Shown: one piece after another, positions 19,912 to 44,387 of the stretch | Numbering within the stretch: the first letter of the stretch is position 1 | Layout: each line of letters begins with the position of its first letter | Source of the DNA: Ancylobacter oerskovii | GTDB taxonomy: Bacteria; Pseudomonadota; Alphaproteobacteria; Rhizobiales; Xanthobacteraceae | DNA length: 64,000 nucleotides | NCBI RefSeq assembly: GCF_018390555.1 | Contig: NZ_JAHBGB010000006.1 | Span: 372,001-436,000, forward strand | Reading direction: 5' to 3' | Position numbers and translations under genes: made by a program | Notes under the pieces: generated by a model | Seen by the model: the letters and a program-made list of their open reading frames with translations, nothing else | Databases searched by the model: none | What the model was told of the DNA's origin: nothing

Positions 19912-19951
19912 CCTCATCCTGAGGTGCGAGCACAGCGAGCCTCGAAGGATG
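19912..19951 (+). repeat. Dispersed palindromic repeat, copy A
   Basis: 40-bp unit reading CCTCATCCTGAGGTGCGAGC then a CAGCGAGCCTCGAAGGATG end. The flanks (CTCGAGCGG before, CGCTCAAGCGC after) are shared with copy C. Confidence 0.85.
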
Positions 19952-19975: not shown

Positions 19976-20020
19976 CATTCTTCGAGGCCCGGCTGACGCC
20001 GGGCACCTTAAGGATGAGGG
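19976..20020 (-). repeat. Dispersed palindromic repeat, copy B (inverted, diverged)
   Basis: Reverse-orientation copy (TTCGAGGCCC ... CACCTTAAGGATGAGG) facing copy A 24 bases away; the centre differs (GGCTGACGCCGGGCACC). Confidence 0.75.
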
Positions 20021-20091: not shown

Positions 20092-20131
20092 CCTCATCCT
20101 GAGGTGCGAGCGCAGCGAGCCTCGAAGGATG
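20092..20131 (+). repeat. Dispersed palindromic repeat, copy C
   Basis: Same orientation as copy A and nearly identical over about 65 bases including flanks, so the segment between looks like a local duplication. Together the three copies fill the 400-bp gap between rimO and the DUF4239 gene. Confidence 0.85.
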
Positions 20132-28805: not shown

Positions 28806-29783
28806 CTAGGGAATCAGCACGCTCGAGCCGGTGGTCTTGCGGCCCTCCAACTCGCGATGCGCCTCGGCGACATCGGCGAGCTTGTAGCGCTGGTTCACCG
28901 GGATCTTCACCACGCCCTTCTGCACGACGTCGAAAAGGTCGGCGGCGTTCGCCTCCAGCGCCTCGCGGGTCGAGACATGGGTGAACAGCGTCGGGCGCGT
29001 CGCATAGAGCGAGCCCTTCTGCGAGAGCAGCAGCAGCGAGAAATTCTGGATGGCGCCGGAGGCGTTGCCGAAGCTCACCCACATGCCGCGCGGGCGCAGG
29101 CAGTCCAGCGAGGCGGGATAGGTCGCCTGGCCGACGCCGTCATAGACCACGTCGCACAGCGCGCCTTCGGTGATCTCCTTCACCCGCGCCGCGAAGTCCT
29201 CCTTCGAGTAGTCGATGGTGTAGGCGGCACCGGCTTCCCTGGCGATGGCGCATTTCTCCGGCGAACCGGCGGTGCCGATCACCGTGGCGCCGAGATGGTT
29301 CGCCCATTGGCAGAGGATCTGCCCGACGCCGCCCGCCGCTGCCTGCACCAGCACCACGTCGCCGGCCTTCACCGGGTAGGTCTGACGCAGCAGGTAGCGC
29401 GCGGTCATGCCCTTCAGCATCATCGCGGCGGCGACCTCGTCCTCCACGCCGTCGGGGATCTTCACCAGCGTCGCGGTCGGCATGATCCGCTCGGCGCAAT
29501 AGGCGCCGAAGGCGGTGCCATAGGCCACCCGGTCGCCGCGCTTGAAGCCGGTCACGCCCTCGCCCACCGCCTCGATCACCCCTGCCGCCTCGTTGCCGGG
29601 GGTGAAGGGCGTGCCGCCCACCGCGGGATAGAGGCCGGAACGGAAATAGGTGTCGATGAAGTTCAGCCCGATGGCGGTATGGCGCAGCCGCACCTGGCCC
29701 GGCCCCGGCGCGCCGAGCTCGATCTCCTCCAGCTTCAGCACCTCGGGTCCGCCGACCTCGTGCACCCGCACCGCCAACACCAT
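28806..29783 (-). CDS. NADPH:quinone oxidoreductase (zeta-crystallin family)
   Basis: 325 residues from ATG 29783. Medium-chain reductase without zinc-ligand cysteines: N-terminal MVLAVRVHEVGGPEVLKLEE, IGLNFIDTYFRSGLYP substrate region, nucleotide-binding AAAGGVGQILCQWANHLGATVIG and VYDGVGQATYPASLDCLRPRG, typical of QOR (E. coli QorA). It reduces quinones, or enone-type electrophiles, with NADPH in the cytoplasm. It lies 37 bases downstream of pcs on the same strand. Confidence 0.9.
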   Translation of the reverse strand: MVLAVRVHEVGGPEVLKLEEIELGAPGPGQVRLRHTAIGLNFIDTYFRSGLYPAVGGTPFTPGNEAAGVIEAVGEGVTGFKRGDRVAYGTAFGAYCAERIMPTATLVKIPDGVEDEVAAAMMLKGMTARYLLRQTYPVKAGDVVLVQAAAGGVGQILCQWANHLGATVIGTAGSPEKCAIAREAGAAYTIDYSKEDFAARVKEITEGALCDVVYDGVGQATYPASLDCLRPRGMWVSFGNASGAIQNFSLLLLSQKGSLYATRPTLFTHVSTREALEANAADLFDVVQKGVVKIPVNQRYKLADVAEAHRELEGRKTTGSSVLIP

Positions 29784-31988: not shown

Positions 31989-32020
31989 CCATTTATAGAA
32001 GCACAAATAAACCACCCCGA

Positions 32021-32060
32021 CCCTGAGGTGCCTGGCCGCAGGCTTGGCCTCGAAGGATGC
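32021..32060 (+). repeat. Dispersed palindromic repeat, copy D (diverged)
   Basis: CCCTGAGGTGCC then a diverged centre and CCTCGAAGGATGC. Forms a head-to-head pair with copy E within the 249-bp gap after the UbiH-like gene. Confidence 0.75.
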
Positions 32061-32088: not shown

Positions 32089-32128
32089 CCTCCTTCGAGG
32101 CTCGCTGCGCTCACCTCTCGGGATGAGG
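32089..32128 (-). repeat. Dispersed palindromic repeat, copy E (inverted)
   Basis: TCCTTCGAGGCTCGCTGCGC followed by TCACCTCTCGGGATGAGG, the reverse complement of the repeat consensus with few changes. Confidence 0.82.
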
Positions 32129-34789: not shown

Positions 34790-36661
34790 GTGACCGATAT
34801 CACCCGTCGCGCCGTCCTGCGCAACGGCCTCATCGCCGCAAACGGCGCAATTTGGACAGCGGCCTGCCTGCCGGCCATTGTGACCCGCGGGCATGCCGAA
34901 ACCGTGGCAGCCATCGGTCCAAATGCGGAAACCGCCCCGCGTCACGGCCTCGCCATGCATGGCGCGCCGCTCTATCCGGCTGATTTTTCTCACTATGCCA
35001 GCGTCAATCCGGCCGCGCCGCGCGGCGGGCGGCTGGTGCAGGGCGCGGTCGGCGCCTTCGACAGCCTCAATCCCTTCATCGTGCGCGGCTCGCCGGCGCC
35101 CTTCGTGCGCTGGAACATCGTCGAGAGCCTGATGGCGCGCTCGCCGGACGAGGCCTTCACCGTCTACGCCCTGCTGGCGCGCTCGATCGAGACCGACGAC
35201 GCCCGCTCCTATGTCGCCTTCGAGCTCGACGAGCGCGCCCGATTCGCCGACGGCACCCCGCTCACCGTCGCCGATGTGATCTTCTCCTTCGAGCTGCTGA
35301 AGGCTCGCGGCCGGCCGAACATGCGCAGCTACTACGCCAAGGTCGCCCGCGCACAGGCTATGGGCGAGCGTCTGGTGCGCTTCGACTTCGCCGGCGCCGA
35401 CCGCGAATTGCCGCTGATCCTCGGCCTGATGCCGATCCTCGCCCGCCACGCCACCGACACCGCCACCTTCGAGCAGACCAGCTTCAGGGCGCCGCTGGGC
35501 ACCGGCCCCTACGAGGTCGCCACCGTGCGGCCCGGCGAAAGCGTCATCCTGCGCCGGCGCGCCGACTATTGGGGCGACGCCCTGCCGGTCAATCGCGGCC
35601 TCTATAATTTCGCCGAGCTGCGCTACGATTATTACCGCGAGGTCAACGGCCTGTTCGAGGCCTTCAAGCGCGGCCTCACCGACATCCGCTTCGAGACCGA
35701 TCCCGGCCGCTGGAGCTCGGGCTACGACATACCGGCGGTGCGCGACGGGCGCATCCTGCGCGAGGACATCGCCACCCGCGTGCCCAAGCCCTATTCGGCG
35801 CTGATCTTCAACATGCGCCGCAAGCCCTTCGACGATGTGCGCGTCCGGGCCGGCATGATGGATCTGTTCGACGCCGAATGGGCGAACGCCAATCTCTATT
35901 TCGGCCTGTACCAGCGGAACGGCAGCTTCTTCGACGGCTCCGAGCTGTCGTCGCGCGGCCGTCCGGCCGAGCCGGCCGAGCGCGCCCTGCTGGCGCCCTT
36001 CCCCGACGCCGTGCTGCCGCAGGTGATGGACGGCACATGGCAGCCGCCCGCCTCGGACGGCTCCGGCCGCGACCGCGCCCGGCTGAAGGCGGCGCTGGAG
36101 CATTTCGAGGCCGGCGGCTACGTGCTCAAGGGCGGCCGGCTGGTCGCCGCCGCCGATGGCCGCCCGCTGGCGCCGGAAGTGCTGGTCGGCACCTACGACC
36201 AGGAACGCCTGGCGCTGTCCTGGCAGCGCATGCTCAAGCGTGCCGGCATCGAGCTGTCGATCCGCCTGGTCGACGGCGCGCAGTTCGAGGCGCGCAAGAC
36301 GAATTACGACTACGACATCGTCCCCTATATCTGGGACCAGTCGCTGTCGCCGGGCAACGAGCAGGCCTTCTATTTCGGTTCGGACGCCGCCGAGACGCCC
36401 GGCACCCGCAACTTCATGGGGCTCAGGAGCCCGGCGGCGGACGCGATGATCGAGGCCCTGCTCGCCGCCCGCTCGCGCGAGGCGTTCGTCACCGCCGTGC
36501 GGGCGCTGGACCGGGTGCTGATTTCGGCGCGCTTCTCGCTGCCCCTGTTCTATACGCCGGGCGAATGGCTGGCCCGCTGGCGCGACGTGGAGCGGCCGGC
36601 GACGCTCTCGCTGCGCGGCACGCTGGCCGAAACCTGGTGGCAGGGCGAGCGCAAGCGCTGA
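34790..36661 (+). CDS. ABC transporter substrate-binding protein, family 5 (YejA-like)
   Basis: 623 residues from GTG 34790, chosen because AAGGAA lies nine bases upstream and the start gives a twin-arginine-like or long signal (DITRRAVLRNGLIAANGAIW). The SBP_bac_5 fold has [35 protein letters not shown] and a long second lobe. The YejA subgroup binds oligopeptides such as microcin C. No permease or ATPase gene follows, so it is an orphan binding protein here. Confidence 0.85.
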   Translation: MTDITRRAVLRNGLIAANGAIWTAACLPAIVTRGHAETVAAIGPNAETAPRHGLAMHGAPLYPADFSHYASVNPAAPRGGRLVQGAVGAFDSLNPFIVRGSPAPFVRWNIVESLMARSPDEAFTVYALLARSIETDDARSYVAFELDERARFADGTPLTVADVIFSFELLKARGRPNMRSYYAKVARAQAMGERLVRFDFAGADRELPLILGLMPILARHATDTATFEQTSFRAPLGTGPYEVATVRPGESVILRRRADYWGDALPVNRGLYNFAELRYDYYREVNGLFEAFKRGLTDIRFETDPGRWSSGYDIPAVRDGRILREDIATRVPKPYSALIFNMRRKPFDDVRVRAGMMDLFDAEWANANLYFGLYQRNGSFFDGSELSSRGRPAEPAERALLAPFPDAVLPQVMDGTWQPPASDGSGRDRARLKAALEHFEAGGYVLKGGRLVAAADGRPLAPEVLVGTYDQERLALSWQRMLKRAGIELSIRLVDGAQFEARKTNYDYDIVPYIWDQSLSPGNEQAFYFGSDAAETPGTRNFMGLRSPAADAMIEALLAARSREAFVTAVRALDRVLISARFSLPLFYTPGEWLARWRDVERPATLSLRGTLAETWWQGERKR

Positions 36662-36813
36662 CGGGCCGCGTGTGCCGCGCGCGACGGGGCGCGGAGGCCA
36701 CACACGGGGATTTCCTTAACCTAGGGACGCCCGGACACTGGACATAGCCGGCGGAAACGGCTCCTTAGGGGCCGGGCGGCGCGAAGATTGGCTGTCTTTC
36801 GGAGTTCAACCAG

Positions 36814-37134
36814 ATGCGTTACGCCGCGTTTATTGCCGCCGGCCTTGCCGCAGCGGCACTTACTGCAGGCCCGGCAACGGCCCAGCAGTCCATCACCGTT
36901 CATCCCCAGGGGCAGCCGCGCAGCATGGGCGAGGAAATCGTCATCCCGCCGCTGAATAACCCGAACTATCTCGATCCCGGCCCGATGCCTGACCGTCCGG
37001 GCTCGGACAAGTCGATGGACTACATGAACCAGGCCGGCGGCAACGAGCTGGGCGGCGTGGGCGTGGGCATCGGCGCGGATGTGGACGCCGACGACCTGCC
37101 CGATGGCGACGGCGCCTACGATTCCGATCCATAG
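36814..37134 (+). CDS. Small secreted acidic protein of unknown function
   Basis: 106 residues with a clear signal peptide ending GPATAQ (about 24). The mature part has basic then acidic character, with HPQGQPRSMGEEIVIPPLNN and a Gly/Asp-rich C-terminus (GADVDADDLPDGDGAYDSDP) that could bind divalent cations. No family recognised. A lone gene followed by palindromic repeats. Confidence 0.6.
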   Translation: MRYAAFIAAGLAAAALTAGPATAQQSITVHPQGQPRSMGEEIVIPPLNNPNYLDPGPMPDRPGSDKSMDYMNQAGGNELGGVGVGIGADVDADDLPDGDGAYDSDP

Positions 37135-37189
37135 GCCCGGCCCGCAGCACCGCCCACAGGCACAGCCTGAGGCCCCCGCCCCGGACACC

Positions 37190-37230
37190 TCCTCGTCACG
37201 AGGCGAGCGCAGCGCGCCTCGAAGGCGGTC
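37190..37230 (+). repeat. Dispersed palindromic repeat, degenerate copy F1
   Basis: CCTCCTCGTCACGAGGCGAG followed by CGCAGCGCGCCTCGAAGGCGG: a weakened copy just before the intact copy F2. Confidence 0.6.
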
Positions 37231-37256
37231 CCTTCGCTACCTTCCCGCAAGCTCAC

Positions 37257-37296
37257 CCTCATCCTGAGGCGCGAGCGGAGCGAGCCTCGAAGGATG
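37257..37296 (+). repeat. Dispersed palindromic repeat, copy F2
   Basis: CCTCATCCTGAGGCGCGAGC then GGAGCGAGCCTCGAAGGATG. It ends 29 bases before the 3' end of the GIY-YIG gene and points toward it. Confidence 0.88.
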
Positions 37297-37325
37297 CTCG
37301 TCCGGGGCAGGCCCCCGGCGGCCGC

Positions 37326-37622
37326 CTATCCGCCGCGAACCGATGGCCGACGCGCCGCCTCGCGCACCGACATCCAGTCGCCGCGTGCCAGTGCCTCCTT
37401 CTTCGCACGGCTCCAGCCCTTCAGCTGTCGCTCGGCGGCGACGGCATCCTCGATCCGCGGGAAATGTTCCGACCAGATGAGCGTCACCGGCCGCCGTTGA
37501 AACGTGTAGCCGGGAAACGCTCTGCTCTGATGTTCGGCCAGGCGCGCTTCCAGCGCCCCGCGTGTCGAACCGATGTAATAGGAGCCGTCGGCGCAGCGCA
37601 GCATGTAGACGAAGGCGCTCAT
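37326..37622 (-). CDS. Single-domain GIY-YIG nuclease (URI family)
   Basis: 98 residues from ATG 37622, with GGAG seven bases upstream. Catalytic strands YMLRCADGSYYIGSTRGALEARLAEHQ carry the GIY/YIG pair (here YML and YIG) and a catalytic Arg; the metal Glu is in RIEDAVAAERQLKGWSRAKKEAL. YhbQ/URI-type proteins are small, often of unknown target. The gene is flanked on both sides, in opposite orientation, by intact copies of the window's palindromic repeat, and the in-frame upstream extension is encoded by the repeat itself. This suggests that the gene and repeats move or evolve together (inference). Confidence 0.88.
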   Translation of the reverse strand: MSAFVYMLRCADGSYYIGSTRGALEARLAEHQSRAFPGYTFQRRPVTLIWSEHFPRIEDAVAAERQLKGWSRAKKEALARGDWMSVREAARRPSVRGG

Positions 37623-37639
37623 TCCCGCTCCAGGGCGAC

Positions 37640-37679
37640 CATCCTTCGAGGCTCGCTGAGCTCGCACCTCAGGATGAGG
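37640..37679 (-). repeat. Dispersed palindromic repeat, copy G (inverted)
   Basis: CATCCTTCGAGGCTCGCTGA then GCTCGCACCTCAGGATGAGG, 17 bases upstream of the GIY-YIG start codon and inverted relative to copy F2. Confidence 0.9.
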
Positions 37680-37768
37680 GTGTTCTCAATGGATGAGAGC
37701 GGAAGACAGCGCCTCGAACAAGCCCGTTACACCCCCTTCGCCCCCCGACACGCCGCCCCAGCCTCGCA

Positions 37769-37807
37769 CCTCATCTGAGGCGCGAGCGCAGCGAGCCTCG
37801 AAGGACG
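37769..37807 (+). repeat. Dispersed palindromic repeat, copy H
   Basis: CCTCATCTGAGGCGCGAGCG then CAGCGAGCCTCGAAGGACG, with one base lost in the first arm; 83 bases before the mfd 3' end. Confidence 0.85.
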
Positions 37808-37889
37808 CAGGCCCGCCCCAACTCCCCCACCCCTGAAACAGCGCCGGCACCATCCGCCCCCAACCGGCAGACGCCCCAGCCGGCGCGCC

Positions 37890-40800
37890 CTACGCCGCCT
37901 TCGCGCCGGCGTCGGCGATCTTCGCCAGTTCCTTCAGGATCGCGCCCACGCCCTTCAGCCGCGCATTGGCGGTGCTCCAGTCGTCGGAAAACACCACCTT
38001 CAGGTCCGGGCGCACCTTGGCGATCACGTTCGGCTTGCCGAGATAGGCCACCAGCCCCGCCGGATTGGGGAACTCGTTGTCGCGGAAGGTCAGCACCGCC
38101 CCGCGTGGGCCGGCATCGACCTTCTCGACATTGGCGCGCCGGCACATCGCCTTGATCGCCACCAGCTTGAGGAACTGCTTCACCTCCTCCGGCGCCGGGC
38201 CGAAGCGGTCGACCAGCTCGGTGCCCACCTGGTCGATCTCCTCCTCGGTCTCGAGGTCGGCGAGGCGGCGATAGAGGTTCAGCCGCACATGCAGGTCGGC
38301 GACATAGTCCTCCGGGATCAGCACCGGCGCGCCGATGGAGATCTGCGGCGACCACTTCTCCGCCACCGGCGCGGTGATGCCGGCCTTCAGATGCGCGATC
38401 GCCTCCTCCAGCATCTCCTGGTAGAGCTCGTAGCCGACCTCCTTGATGTGGCCGGACTGCTCGTCGCCGAGCAAATTGCCGGCGCCGCGTATGTCGAGGT
38501 CGTGGCTGGCGAGCTGGAAGCCGGCGCCCAGCGTATCCAGCGATTGCAGCACTTTCAGCCGCTTCTCCGCCTGCTGGGTGATCTGCTTCTCGGCCGGCAG
38601 GGTGAAGATCGCATAGGCCCGCGTTTTCGAGCGCCCCACCCGCCCGCGCAGCTGGTAGAGCTGGGCGAGGCCGAACATGTCGGAGCGATGGATGATCAGC
38701 GTGTTGGCATTGGGCACGTCGAGGCCGGATTCGACGATGGTGGTGGAGAGCAGCACGTCGAACTGCCCGTCATAGAAGGCGGACATGATCTCTTCCAGCT
38801 GCGTCGCCGCCATCTGGCCATGCGCCACCGTGACCTTCACCTCCGGCACGTTCTTGTCGAGGAACTCCTTCACCTCGCCGAGGTCCTCGATGCGCGGGCA
38901 GACATAGAAGCTCTGGCCGCCGCGATAGCGCTCGCGCAGCAGCGCCTCGCGCACGATCAGGGGGTCGAAGGGCGTCACGAAGCTGCGCACCGCCAGCCGG
39001 TCCACCGGCGGCGAGGCGATGATGGAGAGCTCGCGCACCCCGGTCATGGCGAGCTGCAGCGTGCGCGGGATCGGCGTCGCGGTGAGCGTCAGCACATGCA
39101 CCTCGGCGCGCAGTTGCTTCAGCTTCTCCTTGTGGCCGACACCGAAATGCTGCTCCTCGTCAACGATGACGAGGCCGAGATCCTTGAAATGGATGGTCTT
39201 GCCGAGCAACGCATGCGTGCCCACGACGATGTCGACGGTGCCGTCGGCGAGGCCCTTCTTGGTCTCGGTGAGCTCCTTGCCCGGCACCAGGCGCGAGGCC
39301 TGCCGCACCACCACCGGCAGCCCCTTGAAGCGCTCGGAGAAGGTCTTGAAGTGCTGACGCGCCAGCAGCGTGGTCGGCACCACCACCGCCACCTGCTTGC
39401 CGTTGAGCGCCACCGCAAAGGCCGCGCGCAGCGCCACTTCGGTCTTGCCGAAGCCGACATCGCCGCAGACGAGGCGGTCCATCGGATGGCCGGAGCCGAG
39501 ATCGTCGAACACCGCTTCGATCGAGGCTTCCTGGTCCTCGGTCTCCTCATAGGGGAAGCGGGCGCGGAACTCGTCATAGAGCCCCTCCGCCGGCACGAGG
39601 CGCGGCGCTTCCTTCAGCTGCCGCTCGGCCGCCACCTTGATCAGCTCGGCCGCCATCTCGCGGATGCGGCTCCGCATCTTGGCCTTGCGCGCCTGCCAGC
39701 CGCCGCCGCCCAGCCGGTCGAGCTGCGCCTCGGTGTCCTCCGAGCCGTAGCGCGACAGCAGTTCGAGATTCTCCACCGGCAGGAACAGCTTGGAGCCTTC
39801 CGCATAGTGGATCTCGAGGCAGTCGTGCGGCGCGCCCATCGCCTCGATGGTCTTGAGGCCCACGAAGCGGCCGATGCCGTGGTCGACATGCACCACGAGG
39901 TCGCCGGCGGTCAGCGCCGACAATTCGGAGATCACGTCCTGCGGCCGGCGCGCCTTGCGCTTGGGGCGCACCAGCCGGTCGCCGAGAATGTCCTGCTCGC
40001 CGATCACCGCCAGCGCGTCGGTCTCGAAGCCGCTCTCGATGCCGAGCACGCAGACGCCGAGCGCGCCCTTGGGCAGCTTCTCGGCGGCGTCGCGCGAGCC
40101 GATCCGCTGCGTGCCCTTCAGCCCGTGGTCGCCGAGCACGGTGGTGAGGCGGTCGAGCGAGCCCTCCGACCATGCGGTGACGACCGTGCGCTTCTTCCCC
40201 GCCAGCTCGCGCAGATAGGTCGCCGCCGCCTCGAAGACGTTCCCCTCCGGGTCGGCGCGCTCGGGCGCGAAGGAGCGCGCCGGCCGGCCGTCGAGGTCGA
40301 TCACGTCCTTCGACGGCGGCACGGCGAAGGCGGTCAGCGCCACGGCGGGCGCCTCCTCGCGGCGCTTCGCCCATTCGGCATCGGTAAGGTAGAGCCGGTC
40401 CGGCGGCAGCGGCTTGTAGGGGGCGCCGCCACCCAGCATGCCCTGCCCGGGATGCGCGCCCTGCAGATCCTGGCTTTCCCGCCGCGCGTCGTAATAGTCG
40501 CGGATCTGCGCCAGCCGCTCGCCAGCCGCTTCAGTGCCCTGCGCCTCCATCACGATCGGGCTGTCGCCGGTATAGTCGAACAGCGTGTCGAGCCCGTCAT
40601 GGAACAGCGGCAGCCAGTGCTCCATGCCGGCATAGCGCCGGCCCTCGCTCACCGCCTCATAGAGCAGGTCGCCGCGCTGGGCGGCGCCGAACTGCGCCAC
40701 ATAGGCCATGCGGAAGCGCCGCATGGTCTCGGTGGTCAGCTGCAACTCGCTCATCGGCACCAGTTCGAGGGCGCGCATCTGCGCCGCGGTGCGCTGGGTC

Positions 40801-41432
40801 TCGGGATCGAAGGAGCGGATCGATTCCAGCGTGTCGCCGAAGAAATCGAGCCGCACCGGCATCGGAAGTCCCGGCGGGAACAGATCGACGATGCCGCCGC
40901 GCACCGCATATTCGCCGGTGTCGCGCACGGTGGGGGTGCGGATGAAGCCGTTCACCTCCGCCCATTGCGTCACCTCGTCGAGCGACAGCGCATTGCCCGG
41001 CGCCGCCGAGAAGGACTGCGTGCCCACCAGCTTTCGCCGCGGCACCCGCTGCAAGGCGGCGTCCACGGTGGTGAGCACCACCGAGCCGCCCTCGCGGCCC
41101 TTCACCCGCGCGAGGCGGGCGAGCGTCGCCATCCGCCGCGCCACGATGTCGGCATGCGGCGAGGCGCGGTCATAGGGCAGGCAGTCCCAGCCGGGGAAAG
41201 CCAGCCGCTCCACCTCCGGCGCGAAGAAGGCGAGCGCGCGCTCCAGTTCGGCCATGCGCTCGGCGTCGCGGCAGATCACGGTGAGCGTCGGCCAGGCGGC
41301 CTCGTCCCTGGCCGCCAGCGCGCGGGCGAGGTCGCCGATGACCAGCCCCTCCATGCCGGCGGGCACATTGGCGAGGGTCACCGTCCGCCCGGGGGCGAGA
41401 CGGTCGATGAGCGCGGAATGGGCTTTGGTCAT
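37890..41432 (-). CDS. mfd: Transcription-repair coupling factor Mfd
   Basis: 1180 residues, full family length. N-terminal UvrB-homology region, RNA-polymerase-interacting domain (ALTAGDLVVHVDHGIGRFVGLKTIE), then a RecG-like translocase: Walker A GDVGFGKT at 657-664, DEEQ at 758-761, SATIP-like TATPIPRTLQLAMTG, and the TRCF C-terminal domain. It removes RNA polymerase stalled at DNA lesions and recruits UvrA. The start overlaps the sdhE stop (ATGA), so the two are coupled. Confidence 0.97.
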   Translation of the reverse strand: MTKAHSALIDRLAPGRTVTLANVPAGMEGLVIGDLARALAARDEAAWPTLTVICRDAERMAELERALAFFAPEVERLAFPGWDCLPYDRASPHADIVARRMATLARLARVKGREGGSVVLTTVDAALQRVPRRKLVGTQSFSAAPGNALSLDEVTQWAEVNGFIRTPTVRDTGEYAVRGGIVDLFPPGLPMPVRLDFFGDTLESIRSFDPETQRTAAQMRALELVPMSELQLTTETMRRFRMAYVAQFGAAQRGDLLYEAVSEGRRYAGMEHWLPLFHDGLDTLFDYTGDSPIVMEAQGTEAAGERLAQIRDYYDARRESQDLQGAHPGQGMLGGGAPYKPLPPDRLYLTDAEWAKRREEAPAVALTAFAVPPSKDVIDLDGRPARSFAPERADPEGNVFEAAATYLRELAGKKRTVVTAWSEGSLDRLTTVLGDHGLKGTQRIGSRDAAEKLPKGALGVCVLGIESGFETDALAVIGEQDILGDRLVRPKRKARRPQDVISELSALTAGDLVVHVDHGIGRFVGLKTIEAMGAPHDCLEIHYAEGSKLFLPVENLELLSRYGSEDTEAQLDRLGGGGWQARKAKMRSRIREMAAELIKVAAERQLKEAPRLVPAEGLYDEFRARFPYEETEDQEASIEAVFDDLGSGHPMDRLVCGDVGFGKTEVALRAAFAVALNGKQVAVVVPTTLLARQHFKTFSERFKGLPVVVRQASRLVPGKELTETKKGLADGTVDIVVGTHALLGKTIHFKDLGLVIVDEEQHFGVGHKEKLKQLRAEVHVLTLTATPIPRTLQLAMTGVRELSIIASPPVDRLAVRSFVTPFDPLIVREALLRERYRGGQSFYVCPRIEDLGEVKEFLDKNVPEVKVTVAHGQMAATQLEEIMSAFYDGQFDVLLSTTIVESGLDVPNANTLIIHRSDMFGLAQLYQLRGRVGRSKTRAYAIFTLPAEKQITQQAEKRLKVLQSLDTLGAGFQLASHDLDIRGAGNLLGDEQSGHIKEVGYELYQEMLEEAIAHLKAGITAPVAEKWSPQISIGAPVLIPEDYVADLHVRLNLYRRLADLETEEEIDQVGTELVDRFGPAPEEVKQFLKLVAIKAMCRRANVEKVDAGPRGAVLTFRDNEFPNPAGLVAYLGKPNVIAKVRPDLKVVFSDDWSTANARLKGVGAILKELAKIADAGAKAA

Positions 41433-41731
41433 ATTTCGGGAAGGCCTTCCCCGGAGAGATGGAAGCGGCGGAAACGCTGGAACATCGGCGTGTCGAACGG
41501 CGCCGGGGCGTTGCCGGAGTTGACCCAGTACAGGATGTCCGGGTCCTCGATCTCGATCAGCAGCTCGAAGGCGTCGACCTCCTCCTCGCTCATCTCCGGC
41601 AGCAGGGCGTCGGCGAAGCGGCCCATCAGCAGGTCCATCTCGCGCGTGCCGCGATGCCAGGCACGGAAGAGAAGCCGCCGCCGGCGAGGGTCGAGCCCCG
41701 CGCTCGAGCGCGTGGTTCCGGTCATTCGCAT
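41429..41731 (-). CDS. sdhE: Succinate dehydrogenase assembly factor SdhE
   Basis: 100 residues. RRLLFRAWHRGTREMDLLMGRFAD contains the RGxxE motif essential for covalent flavinylation of SdhA; the second half (FELLIEIEDPDILYWV) completes the five-helix fold. sdhE beside mfd and recG is a conserved arrangement in rhizobia. In the cytoplasm it helps attach FAD to succinate dehydrogenase. Confidence 0.95.
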   Translation of the reverse strand: MRMTGTTRSSAGLDPRRRRLLFRAWHRGTREMDLLMGRFADALLPEMSEEEVDAFELLIEIEDPDILYWVNSGNAPAPFDTPMFQRFRRFHLSGEGLPEI

Positions 41732-41950
41732 ACGCCTCGTTGTGGCCGGCCGATCGGCGGTCGGCGAGAAAGGTCCAAAGGGCGCCGCCCTCTTAGCGCG
41801 CCCCGCCCCGCCTGTCAGGTAGGCAATGGGATGGCATTAGGGAAGTGGCCCGCGCTCATGGCCGGGTTGCTCCGCGCGTGCCCCCGGGGCGCGGCAGGGC
41901 GCGGGGGATAGGGAAAAGCCGGCTCCCGAGGCACCTACCCAGCAGAACCC

Positions 41951-41990
41951 CCTCATCCTGAGGCGCGAGCGCAGCGAGCCTCGAAGGAGG
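41951..41990 (+). repeat. Dispersed palindromic repeat, copy I
   Basis: CCTCATCCTGAGGCGCGAGC then GCAGCGAGCCTCGAAGGAGG; inverted relative to copy J 30 bases on. Confidence 0.88.
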
Positions 41991-42019
41991 CCCGGTGAGG
42001 CGCATCCGCCCCGCGGGAC

Positions 42020-42062
42020 CATCCTTCGAGGCCCACCTGACGGCGGACACCTCAGGATGAGG
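42020..42062 (-). repeat. Dispersed palindromic repeat, copy J (inverted)
   Basis: CATCCTTCGAGGCCCACCTG then ACGGCGGACACCTCAGGATGAGG. The pair I/J can fold into one long hairpin between the divergent sdhE-mfd and recG transcription units. Confidence 0.82.
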
Positions 42063-42305
42063 GCGCGCTTGTGGAAGCGTGGGCAAAGCTACACGCGGAA
42101 GCGACCAGCCACACACGCCGTCATCCCCGGGCTTGGCCCGGGGATCCACGCCTTCCACCGGCACGGCGTTTCCGGCGGCCCTGAAGAGGCGGAGGACCGG
42201 GACAAGCCCGGCCATGACGACCGGAGCACCGCATGCTCTCCAGCCGGGGGACAGCCCGCCCCGTCCGATTGCACCCCCGCGCCTCTTCCGCCACAGTCCG
42301 GCGCC

Positions 42306-44387
42306 ATGCGCCCGGACGCCCTCAACCCCTATTTCGCCGCCGTCACCGACCTGTCGGGCATCGGGCCGAAGCTCGCCCGTCCGTTCGGCCGGCTGCTCGG
42401 CCGGCCGGAAGGCGCGCGCGTGCTGGACCTCCTCCTGCACCTGCCCTCCTCCACCCTCGACCGCCGCGCCCGCCCGACCATCGCCCAGCTCGCCGCCGGC
42501 GACCTCGCCACGCTGCGCGTGCATGTCGACCGCCATGTCCCCACCCCGCCCGGCTCGCGCGCGCCCTATCGCGTCTACGCCCATGACGAGACCGGCGACC
42601 TGGCGCTGATCTTCTTCGCCGCCGACCGCCGGCGCATGGAGCACATGCTGCCCGTCGGCGAGGACCGCTGGGTGTCCGGCACCGTACAGATGTATGACGG
42701 CCTGCCGCAGATCGTGCATCCCGACCGGGTGCTGGACGATGCCGGGATCGCCCGGCTGCCGCCCGTCGAGCCGGTCTATCCGCTGGTGGAAGGGCTGGGC
42801 CAGGGCCATGTCCGCCGCGCCATCGCCGGCGCGCTGCAGAAGACCGGCCCGCTGCCCGATTGGGGCTCCCTGCCCGGTGCGCCGGAATTCCACGCCGCCC
42901 TCGCCGGCATCCACCAGCCGCAGGACACCGCCGATGCCACGCCCGCCGGCACCGGCTGGCGCCGCCTCGCCTATGACGAATTGCTGGCCGGCCAGCTGGC
43001 CCTCGCTCTGGTGCGCGCCCGCACCGTGCGCAAGACCGGCCGGCCCGTCACCGGCACCGGCGTGCTGACGGCGAAACTCCTCCAGGCCCTGCCCTTCGCG
43101 CTCACCTCTTCGCAGGAGACGGCGCTCGAGGCCATCCGCGCCGACCTCGGCTCCGGCAACCGCATGCTGCGCCTGCTGCAGGGCGATGTCGGCTCCGGCA
43201 AGACGGTGGTAGCGCTGCTCGCCGCCGCCACGGTGATCGAGGCCGGCCATCAGGCGGCGATCATGGCGCCGACCGAAATCCTCGCCCGCCAGCACCTCAA
43301 GACCATCGCCCCGCTCGCCGAGGCCGCCGGCATTCGCGTCGCCGTGCTCACCGGGCGGGAGAAGGGCAAGGCCCGCGGGGCTCTCCTCGATGCCCTGATG
43401 CAGGGCGAGATCGACCTCGTCATCGGCACCCATGCGCTGTTCCAGGAGGGCGTCGGCTTCCGCGATCTCGCGCTCGCCATCGTCGACGAGCAGCACCGCT
43501 TCGGCGTGCACCAGCGCCTCGCCCTCGCCGCCAAGGGTGAGGCGGTGGACGTGCTGGTGATGACCGCCACGCCGATTCCGCGCACGCTGGTGCTCACCTA
43601 TTTCGGCGACATGGATTCTTCCGAGCTGAGGGAGAAGCCCAAGGGCCGCAAGCCGATCGACACCCGCATGGTGGCGATGGACCGGCTCGACGAGGTGATC
43701 GCCCGCCTCGGCCACGCCTTGCAGGAGGGCCGCCGCGTCTACTGGATCTGCCCGCTGGTGGAAGAATCCGAAACCTCCGATCTCGCCGCCGCGCAGGAGC
43801 GTTTCGAGGATCTGCGCCAGCATTTCGGCGCCGCCGTCGGCCTCGTGCACGGCAAGATGAAGGGCGCCGAGAAGGACGCCGCCATGGCCGCCTTCGCGCG
43901 CGGCGAGACCCGCATCCTCGTCGCCACCACCGTCGTGGAGGTCGGCGTCGACGTGCCCGAAGCCAGCATCATCGTCATCGAGCATGCCGAGCGCTTCGGC
44001 CTCGCGCAGCTGCACCAGCTGCGCGGGCGGGTCGGGCGCGGCGACGTCGCCTCGACCTGCCTCTTGGTCTATCGCCGCCCGCTCGGCGAGGTCGCCCGCG
44101 CCCGGCTGGAGGCGCTGCGCGAATCCGACGACGGCTTCTTCCTCGCCGAGAAAGATCTGGAACTGCGCGGCGAGGGCGACCTGCTCGGCACCCGCCAGAG
44201 CGGCCTGCCCGGCTTCCGCGTCGCCCGGCTGGAGGTGCATGGCGATCTCCTGGAGCGCGCCCGCGCCGAGGCCCGCGCCGTCGTCGCCGCCGACCCGGAT
44301 CTCCTCGGCGAGCGCGGCCGGGCCTTGCGCCTGCTGCTGCACATCTTCGAGCGCGACGTCGCGGTGAAGCTGCTCGAGGCCGGCTAG
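42306..44387 (+). CDS. recG: ATP-dependent DNA helicase RecG
   Basis: 693 residues from ATG 42306; the frame is open further upstream, but those codons cross a repeat-rich gap. N-terminal wedge/OB domain (DLSGIGPKLARPFGRLL), Walker A GDVGSGKT at 293-300, DEQH at 394-397, TATPIPRTLVLTYFGDMDSSEL, motif VI HQLRGRVGRGD, and C-terminal region RQSGLPGFRVARLEVHGDLL. It rewinds stalled replication forks and branch-migrates Holliday junctions. Confidence 0.96.
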   Translation: MRPDALNPYFAAVTDLSGIGPKLARPFGRLLGRPEGARVLDLLLHLPSSTLDRRARPTIAQLAAGDLATLRVHVDRHVPTPPGSRAPYRVYAHDETGDLALIFFAADRRRMEHMLPVGEDRWVSGTVQMYDGLPQIVHPDRVLDDAGIARLPPVEPVYPLVEGLGQGHVRRAIAGALQKTGPLPDWGSLPGAPEFHAALAGIHQPQDTADATPAGTGWRRLAYDELLAGQLALALVRARTVRKTGRPVTGTGVLTAKLLQALPFALTSSQETALEAIRADLGSGNRMLRLLQGDVGSGKTVVALLAAATVIEAGHQAAIMAPTEILARQHLKTIAPLAEAAGIRVAVLTGREKGKARGALLDALMQGEIDLVIGTHALFQEGVGFRDLALAIVDEQHRFGVHQRLALAAKGEAVDVLVMTATPIPRTLVLTYFGDMDSSELREKPKGRKPIDTRMVAMDRLDEVIARLGHALQEGRRVYWICPLVEESETSDLAAAQERFEDLRQHFGAAVGLVHGKMKGAEKDAAMAAFARGETRILVATTVVEVGVDVPEASIIVIEHAERFGLAQLHQLRGRVGRGDVASTCLLVYRRPLGEVARARLEALRESDDGFFLAEKDLELRGEGDLLGTRQSGLPGFRVARLEVHGDLLERARAEARAVVAADPDLLGERGRALRLLLHIFERDVAVKLLEAG

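Follow-up and report, generated by a model that had tools for sequence, protein, structure and literature searches.

Hairpin repeats flanking a small GIY-YIG nuclease gene in Ancylobacter oerskovii and its relatives point to cognate nuclease–repeat pairs

Analysis of a 64,000-nt stretch of Ancylobacter oerskovii DNA (contig NZ_JAHBGB010000006.1, positions 372,001 to 436,000; hereafter, the window) revealed a gene for a 98-aa stand-alone GIY-YIG nuclease (nuclease A) between two intact, facing copies, R2 and R3, of a dispersed hairpin repeat (repeat A; Table 1). This pairing of nuclease and flanking repeat was observed clade-wide, and different nuclease clades were found to carry different repeats, even within one genome. 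Cognate pairing is strongly supported by these observations, and we consider it likely that gene and flanking repeats form one unit, in which a site-specific GIY-YIG nuclease would target the hairpin repeat bracketing its own gene.

Repeats beside nuclease A and its relatives

The window protein scored 59.4 bits against the PF01541 profile (cut-off 22.6), which places it in the GIY-YIG superfamily. The initial annotation of this DNA, made from the sequence alone, is borne out on both the gene and its intact facing repeats. A scan of species genomes with the nuclease A protein returned at least 533 relatives, the best 80 of which were kept as A loci; their titles were alphaproteobacterial, with two labelled just Proteobacteria. 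Of these best 80 relatives, 79 had the repeat A core (TGAG..TCGAA) within 350 bp of the gene, and 59 had it to the left as well as to the right, compared with 126 of 1499 control windows placed more than 1 kb away. The sole locus lacking the core (L076) was found by reading to contain a variant of it. Under a stricter hairpin rule, the same 80 loci were divided into 32 with elements on both sides, 21 with one and 27 with none (control windows: 83 of 1924). A motif-free test gave the same picture: an inverted-repeat flank score of at least 15 was reached by 62 of 79 GIY-YIG loci (L052 was left out, its flank being too short) and by only 2 of 372 control open reading frames (ORFs) of the same loci, so that flanking is indeed commoner here than at random genes, as had been proposed.

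Strict elements occurred on both sides of the gene in 37 of the 80 loci, with tags pointing outward, like those of the window, in 25 of the 37. In-frame stops interrupted four of the 80 relatives (L063, L076, L086 and L090). Among the nuclease A copies that are partial or carry stops (these four, together with L132 and L139), several still adjoin A repeats. The nuclease A gene thus seems to be lost at times, with its repeats remaining.

Repeat A has the layout C(S)TC-ATCCTGAGG - variable apical hairpin - CCTC-GA-AGGATG. Among 146 distinct elements selected by their CATCCTGAG start, the tag preceding this start was near-invariant (position –1 was T in 146, position –2 was C or G in 145 and position –3 was C in 144 elements), and the 3′ flank showed no conservation. 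The apical part, 14 to 40 nt in length, varied in sequence and length and retained its ability to pair: for 120 distinct inner sequences, native folds were better than those of shuffles (mean z –2.83), and 63 beat all 50 shuffles. Words of the lower stem covaried between lineages (ATCC/GGAT, ACCC/GGGT, ATGC/GCAT, GTCC/GGAC, ATGG/CCAT). Over 150 locus-and-word rows, pairing exceeded the maximum of 500 shuffles for three of four lower-stem pairs (130 vs. 119, 128 vs. 115 and 107 vs. 91) and fell below it for the fourth (78 vs. 84). Sphingomonas, Methylobacterium, Reyranella and others possess recognisable variants of repeat A with the core TGAG..TCGAA.

Among known repeats, repeat A compares with the CGTC-tagged class of repetitive extragenic palindromic (REP) sequences published by Di Nocera et al. 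in 2013 (PMC3733652), described there as mostly alphaproteobacterial facing dimers with a CGTC, TGTC or CCTC tag, an AT-initiated stem and a CCA tail, apparently without a dedicated transposase. Repeat A shares the tag (CGTC or CCTC), the AT at the stem foot and the occurrence in facing pairs; it differs in a GA bulge that replaces the uninterrupted 8–9 bp stem, in a long variable apical stem instead of a short loop, and in the lack of a CCA tail. Owing to the bulge, the 14- to 40-nt apical part and the unconserved 3′ flank, it stands outside the typical CGTC-tagged REPs and is, judged by its sequence, a bulged relative of that superfamily. According to PMC3733652, bulged repeats may have been missed in that survey.

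Nuclease clades and their repeats

The A. oerskovii genome (G000, 5.48 Mb) contains three PF01541 matches: the window gene, a distant paralogue on contig C7 (L010), and a domain in a 760-aa frame, presumably UvrC. This putative uvrC has a repeat A copy at ~340 bp from its GIY-YIG domain (C39:232695-233277). Flanking the C7 paralogue on either side is another repeat, repeat B (CGTCATGSCCGGGCTTGTCCCGGSCATCCACG), whose pattern occurs 92 times in the genome. As read from the copies beside L010 and other listed copies, repeat B has the form CGTC-ATGSCCGGG-loop-CCCGGSCAT-CCA and shows all the hallmarks of CGTC-tagged REPs (CGTC tag, AT-initiated stem of 8–9 bp, loop of 4–5 nt, CCA tail, facing pairs).

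In a sample of the family, 30 A-type loci carried the strict A motif in 28 cases and the strict B motif in none; conversely, 30 B-type loci carried strict B in 27 cases and strict A in none, and each of the five exceptional loci had a variant of its own repeat. We further collected 20 stretches around weak GIY-YIG matches, chosen by hand from repeat-rich genomes of the family. Two of these represented partial or stop-bearing nuclease A (L132, and L139, which lies close to the end of its contig). In the remaining 18, reading revealed an adjoining palindromic element every time, of several mutually unlike families (GTCATTCCGGGGC, GTCATGCCCGCG, GTCATCCCGG, TGTCCCGG, GTCGTCCCGG and others). A generic GTCRT hairpin was present on at least one side of 30/30 B-type loci and 14/21 loci of the paralogue set (L010 included), compared with 4/80 A loci and 5/171 control windows, and the A core was found beside 3/30 B loci and 3/21 paralogue loci. 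The pairing is thus broader than initially annotated, extending to other nuclease clades with repeats of their own. Four paralogues (L128, L130, L133 and L138) have TGTCCCGG-type palindromes that lack the TCAT motif; three of them are on the protein tree described below, where they form one group (support 96). The 3 Mb genome G085 of the family sample yielded ten matches to the B-type nuclease query, an unusual paralogue load.

A tree of 108 proteins (96 alignment columns, with many unresolved forks) comprised the window nuclease, alternate A loci (40 of 80) and others. It omits the nuclease A remnants L132 and L139, the stop-bearing L161, L163 and L202, and L142 (the same gene as L010), and is also without six stop-bearing rows (L076, L086, L090, L129, L135, L138). 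A clade of 38 rows, the A clade (SH-aLRT support 99), carries A repeats exclusively. Over the whole tree, repeat labels required 23 changes compared with a shuffled mean of 62, and none of 200 shuffles reached a value as low. L199 bears the motif label A although it falls outside the A clade.

The two pairs also dissociated across 119 genomes of the family. With nuclease A scored as present at E<1e-15 (n = 34) and nuclease B at E<1e-40 (n = 31), repeat A reached a median of 33 copies in genomes with nuclease A vs. 3 in those without (p=1e-9), and repeat B a median of 39 vs. 8 copies with and without nuclease B (p=2e-5). The cross comparisons revealed no association, neither between nuclease A and repeat B (p=0.5) nor between nuclease B and repeat A (p=0.47). 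Within genera holding both states, repeat A was higher with nuclease A in 14/16 (p=0.004) and repeat B with nuclease B in 14/17 (p=0.013), compared with 7/16 for nuclease A and repeat B (p=0.8) and, for nuclease B and repeat A, 5 higher, 9 lower and 3 ties of 17 (p=0.42). The result for nuclease A was stable over cut-offs from 1e-28 to 1e-10, and that for nuclease B with repeat B held at all cut-offs tried. Two of the 31 nuclease B genomes (G027, G080) contained 0 and 2 strict B copies, and their B loci (L168, L156) carry variant repeats.

Comparison of genomes of the same genus revealed that the location of the nuclease–repeat unit differs between close relatives. In four of them (G084, G022, G103, G062), no cassette follows mfd and the secreted-protein gene that flanks the window cassette is the next gene; G084, G022 and G103 have other CGTC-like repeats between the two. 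In G062 (87% DNA identity at the site), the interval measures 160 bases vs. 634 in the window and holds a single A repeat, a hybrid whose left side matches the mfd-proximal R1 (37768) and whose right side matches the distal R3 (37257). Elsewhere, G022 and G103 encode nuclease A with A repeats between asd and rhodanese/ispG genes (names inferred from translations). At the same interval, G084 has a different GIY-YIG gene (L218, C3:241880-242680) bracketed by facing CGTCATCCCGG...CCGGGATCG elements of the GTCATCCCGG type; in G000 and G062, a motif search of the interval revealed neither an A repeat nor a GIY-YIG frame. The interval (L218 vs. L220, L221, L217 and L219) is a possible hotspot.

The window repeat sites at 19.9, 32 and 42 kb correspond to shorter, repeat-free stretches in G062; those at 19.9 and 32 kb are also without a repeat in G084, G022 and G103, with the caveat that at 19.9 kb the right flank of G103 resumes 800 bases later. 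Within this comparison of empty sites, L211 and L212 showed single chance-like arm strings. G062 as a whole has no nuclease A match at E<=1e-5, no nuclease B match at E<=1e-12, 0 strict A copies with a few degenerate ones, and 4 B copies, compared with 47 A copies, 92 B copies and both nucleases in G000. This single comparison suggests a recent repeat expansion in the nuclease-bearing lineage.

Candidate mechanism, alternatives and known systems

Alignment of the window nuclease with 34 of the 80 relatives (35 sequences) revealed Y6, G18, R27 and K68-K74 to be invariant and E64 nearly so. Y6, G18, R27 and E64 correspond to residues with catalytic roles in GIY-YIG enzymes, and their conservation suggests an active enzyme. 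An AlphaFold2 model based on this alignment (mean predicted local distance difference test score 88, predicted template modelling score 0.76) retrieved as top Foldseek matches the UPF0213 proteins 1zg2 (E=1e-5) and 1ywl (3e-4), followed by Slx1, consistent with a GIY-YIG fold. The UPF0213/YhbQ proteins are the nearest solved structures by sequence and fold, but in E. coli the yhbQ gene overlaps yhbS, so that a repeat would have no space on that side. NCBIfam profiles gave no family for the window nuclease at E<=0.001.

A Neisseria GIY-YIG nuclease, Ssn, was reportedly described in 2025 as acting specifically on a dispersed repeat (NTS) in single-stranded form, and is said to have many homologues with target sequences of their own. 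Ssn/NTS is probably the closest precedent: a small stand-alone GIY-YIG gene is reportedly flanked by its own dispersed repeat there, as is observed here. The systems differ in that the target of nuclease A is deduced by us from its surroundings and that repeat A is bulged, with a large free apical stem. If Ssn is as reported, the principle of a GIY-YIG nuclease with its repeat was already known, and the present analysis adds subfamily A with its bulged repeat, a connection to CGTC-tagged REPs, coexisting pairs in one genome, the dissociation of two pairs across genomes, and changes of place.

We regard it as very likely that nuclease A acts on its repeat as a dedicated enzyme, and give even chances to the enzyme driving the spread of the repeats; that the nuclease both cuts and mobilises them is what we infer from sequence comparison. 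In such a scheme, a single-stranded repeat (on the lagging-strand template, during DNA uptake, or as an extruded cruciform) would fold into a hairpin, leaving the CSTC tag unpaired at the foot. The nuclease would recognise the tag together with the lower stem or bulge and cut one strand, and host repair or recombination at the cut might then copy or join repeats. Facing pairs, at times with the nuclease gene inside, could thereby reach new sites, and after decay or loss of the nuclease the repeats would stay as relics. A wider and more tentative proposal, to which we give somewhat less than even odds, is that dedicated GIY-YIG nucleases drive the whole superfamily of CGTC-tagged REPs, each nuclease clade with its own tagged hairpin, several pairs operating in a single genome without cross-reaction and spreading in a homing-like manner, whereby a repeat is cut and repair copies repeats, and occasionally the nuclease gene within a facing pair, into the site. 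Such a unit would represent a type of mobile element that has no transposase.

Several points weigh against the reading of gene and repeats as one cognate unit. GIY-YIG enzymes hydrolyse DNA without rejoining strands, so spread of the repeats would need host repair. The copy-number correlation leaves the direction of cause unfixed. Loosening the cut-off brings out a correlation of the nuclease B query with repeat A as well (p=0.05 at E<1e-30, p<0.01 at E<1e-25), so the dissociation depends on separating nuclease B from its paralogues, most of which the query probably picks up at these values. Genomes with many repeats and no nuclease, which the initial annotation had named as evidence against its proposal, do exist to some extent: among the 85 genomes that lack a close nuclease A homologue, 41 contain at least 5 A repeats (up to 88; at least 10 in 33 of the 85), so repeats persist without nuclease A, yet all 34 nuclease A genomes have at least 8. 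Two of these nuclease-free, repeat-rich genomes (G024, G049) hold the nuclease A remnants L132 and L139, and by analogy such genomes resemble REPs persisting after loss of their enzyme. Conversely, in at least four of the 34 nuclease A genomes (G027, G038, G071, G118), the best match is partial or stop-bearing. In a phylum sample, a B-type homologue (E<=1e-10) was present in 102/398 genomes, but of 28 loci from this sample, a set without control, the required flank score was reached by 18, with five more at 14 and the last five between 8 and 11. Finally, the mfd site is equally compatible with a cassette gained at a repeat and with one lost through R1–R3 recombination: the single R1/R3 hybrid of G062, set against the cassette of G000, invites comparison with a homing endonuclease, and a deletion would look alike.

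An appreciable though less likely alternative is that the nuclease uses the repeats as marks without spreading them: it would cut incoming single-stranded DNA, as reported for Ssn, and tune transformation or recombination, the flanking copies serving autoregulation or protection. The anatomy matches what is said of Ssn, with a small GIY-YIG gene between repeat copies and many copies elsewhere. The upstream repeat copy, moreover, lies inside the presumed 5′ leader of the gene. In addition, Neisseria dRS3 belongs to the CGTC-1 REP family (PMC3733652), and of the 12 tree rows that represent other classes of the phylum, 7 were labelled with CGTCATTCCCG-type flanks. By itself, however, marking accounts neither for copy numbers that track the nuclease nor for a unit that has moved within a genus.

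It is improbable, in our estimation, that REPs of another origin, such as a RAYT (REP-associated tyrosine transposase) or another transposase, spread first and that dispensable GIY-YIG genes merely survive among them or hitch-hike by recombination at repeats. Such recombination can move or delete a gene, repeats do exist without the nuclease, and genomes with the transposase domain Y1_Tnp trend weakly towards more A repeats (median 17 vs. 11.5, p=0.09). Yet a repeat of its own for each nuclease clade is not predicted by hitch-hiking, which is further weakened by the double dissociation, and the tyrosine transposase genes examined in PMC3733652 were all without flanking CGTC repeats. Likewise, G000 has no match to Y1_Tnp (PF01797) at E<=0.001, so no RAYT was found that could account for the repeats, and a RAYT as mobiliser of the window repeats was rejected. 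That the repeats serve in regulation or structure (as terminator, mRNA stabiliser or gyrase site) and have no relation to the nuclease is highly improbable: they are intergenic hairpins, for which such roles have been discussed among REPs (PMC3733652), but two-sided enrichment at one gene family and clade-specific pairing are left unexplained and contradict it as a full account. A secondary regulatory role is possible.

The parallel to RAYT genes flanked by REPs, already drawn in the initial annotation, fits in anatomy, and the role of the nuclease as mobiliser or processing enzyme stays an interpretation of sequence. According partly to general background and partly to PMC3686654, the likeness to GTAG REPs and REPINs comprises an enzyme gene between REPs, facing REP pairs, and repeats that outlive the enzyme. 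The differences are a GIY-YIG enzyme in place of a tyrosine HUH transposase and a CSTC in place of a GTAG tag. The main text of PMC3733652 does not mention GIY-YIG, the word 'nuclease' is absent from a 2025 REP survey (PMC12306157), and our search found no literature linking CGTC-type REPs with GIY-YIG proteins; listed matches of a literature text search for repeat strings look like primers or unrelated sequences.

The published question of which enzyme, if any, serves CGTC-tagged REPs in Alphaproteobacteria gains a concrete candidate with evidence for specificity. Nuclease–repeat pairs would also constitute a natural catalogue of small-nuclease targets, as many of the genes adjoin their probable target. 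Two unlike pairs within a single genome and differing pairs in one slot of sister species would allow specificity and spread to be compared in one background.

The nuclease locus and repeat copies in the window

Coordinates of the nuclease gene, its neighbours and all repeat A copies are listed in Table 1. The name mfd rests on family features, and the secreted protein is named after its signal-like N-terminus; neither gene is part of the cassette. Subfamily A nucleases share the conserved word KGWSRAKKEAL.

Table 1. Nuclease gene, neighbouring genes and repeat A copies in the window
Feature	Position	Strand	Remarks
Nuclease A gene	37326..37622	minus	98-aa stand-alone GIY-YIG, subfamily A; ATG start, TAG stop
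Upstream in-frame extension (GTG start, total 113 aa)	37623..37667	minus	from ORF list; reads through repeat DNA
Repeat A, R3	37257..37296	plus	3′ side of nuclease gene; 39/40 consensus
Repeat A, R2	37640..37679	minus	5′ side of nuclease gene, faces R3; 38/40 consensus
Repeat A, R1	37768..37807	plus	adjoins mfd; one-base indel; 33/40 without gap
Repeat A, degenerate copy	37194..37228	plus	5 arm substitutions; alone near chance level
Repeat A	19912..19951	plus	38/40 consensus
Repeat A	19976..20016	minus	faces 19912; other apical stem; 3 arm substitutions
Repeat A	20092..20131	plus	39/40 consensus
Repeat A	32019..32059	plus	other apical stem; 2 arm substitutions
Repeat A	32089..32128	minus	faces 32019; 35/40 consensus
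Repeat A	41951..41990	plus	39/40 consensus
Repeat A	42020..42059	minus	faces 41951; other apical stem; arms exact
mfd, presumed (transcription-repair coupling factor)	37890..41432	minus	ORF; cassette neighbour
Small secreted-protein gene, putative	36814..37134	plus	ORF; other cassette neighbour

The initial annotation had also noted an upstream in-frame extension of the nuclease encoded by the repeat. This GTG frame to 113 aa is real but probably untranslated, representing 5′ untranslated region, because a plausible ribosome-binding site (GGAGCGGGA) precedes the ATG at 37622 and the Met encoded there is where the alignment of relatives begins. A functional N-terminus encoded by the repeat was considered and rejected.

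The window contains ten clear copies of repeat A, mostly in facing pairs; the earlier count of eleven is right if the degenerate copy at 37194 is accepted. The latter was kept solely as a neighbour of R3, an equal-score match at 29198 (minus strand) having been discarded, and the looser arm scan yields about one chance match per simulated window. Five windows simulated with a first-order Markov model gave a consensus match of 25/40 at best, and the core motif, at up to 3 mismatches, occurred six times in the window and in none of 100 shuffles. Chance flanking of the nuclease gene by repeats was rejected by shuffles, control ORFs and control windows. One of the four facing pairs holds the nuclease gene; the spacers inside the other three measure 24 to 29 bases. 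The genome-wide count proposed initially gave 47 strict copies in G000 (48 by the core pattern with up to 2 mismatches) and zero matches to a reversed control pattern. Rfam returned no match up to E=0.1 for window positions 36000-42500. In the stretch 42118-42250, an CGTCATCCCCGGGCTTGGCCCGGGGATCCACG element and a decayed B-like element (42208, minus strand) adjoin the repeat A pair 41951/42020, so that different REP families lie side by side in this intergenic region.
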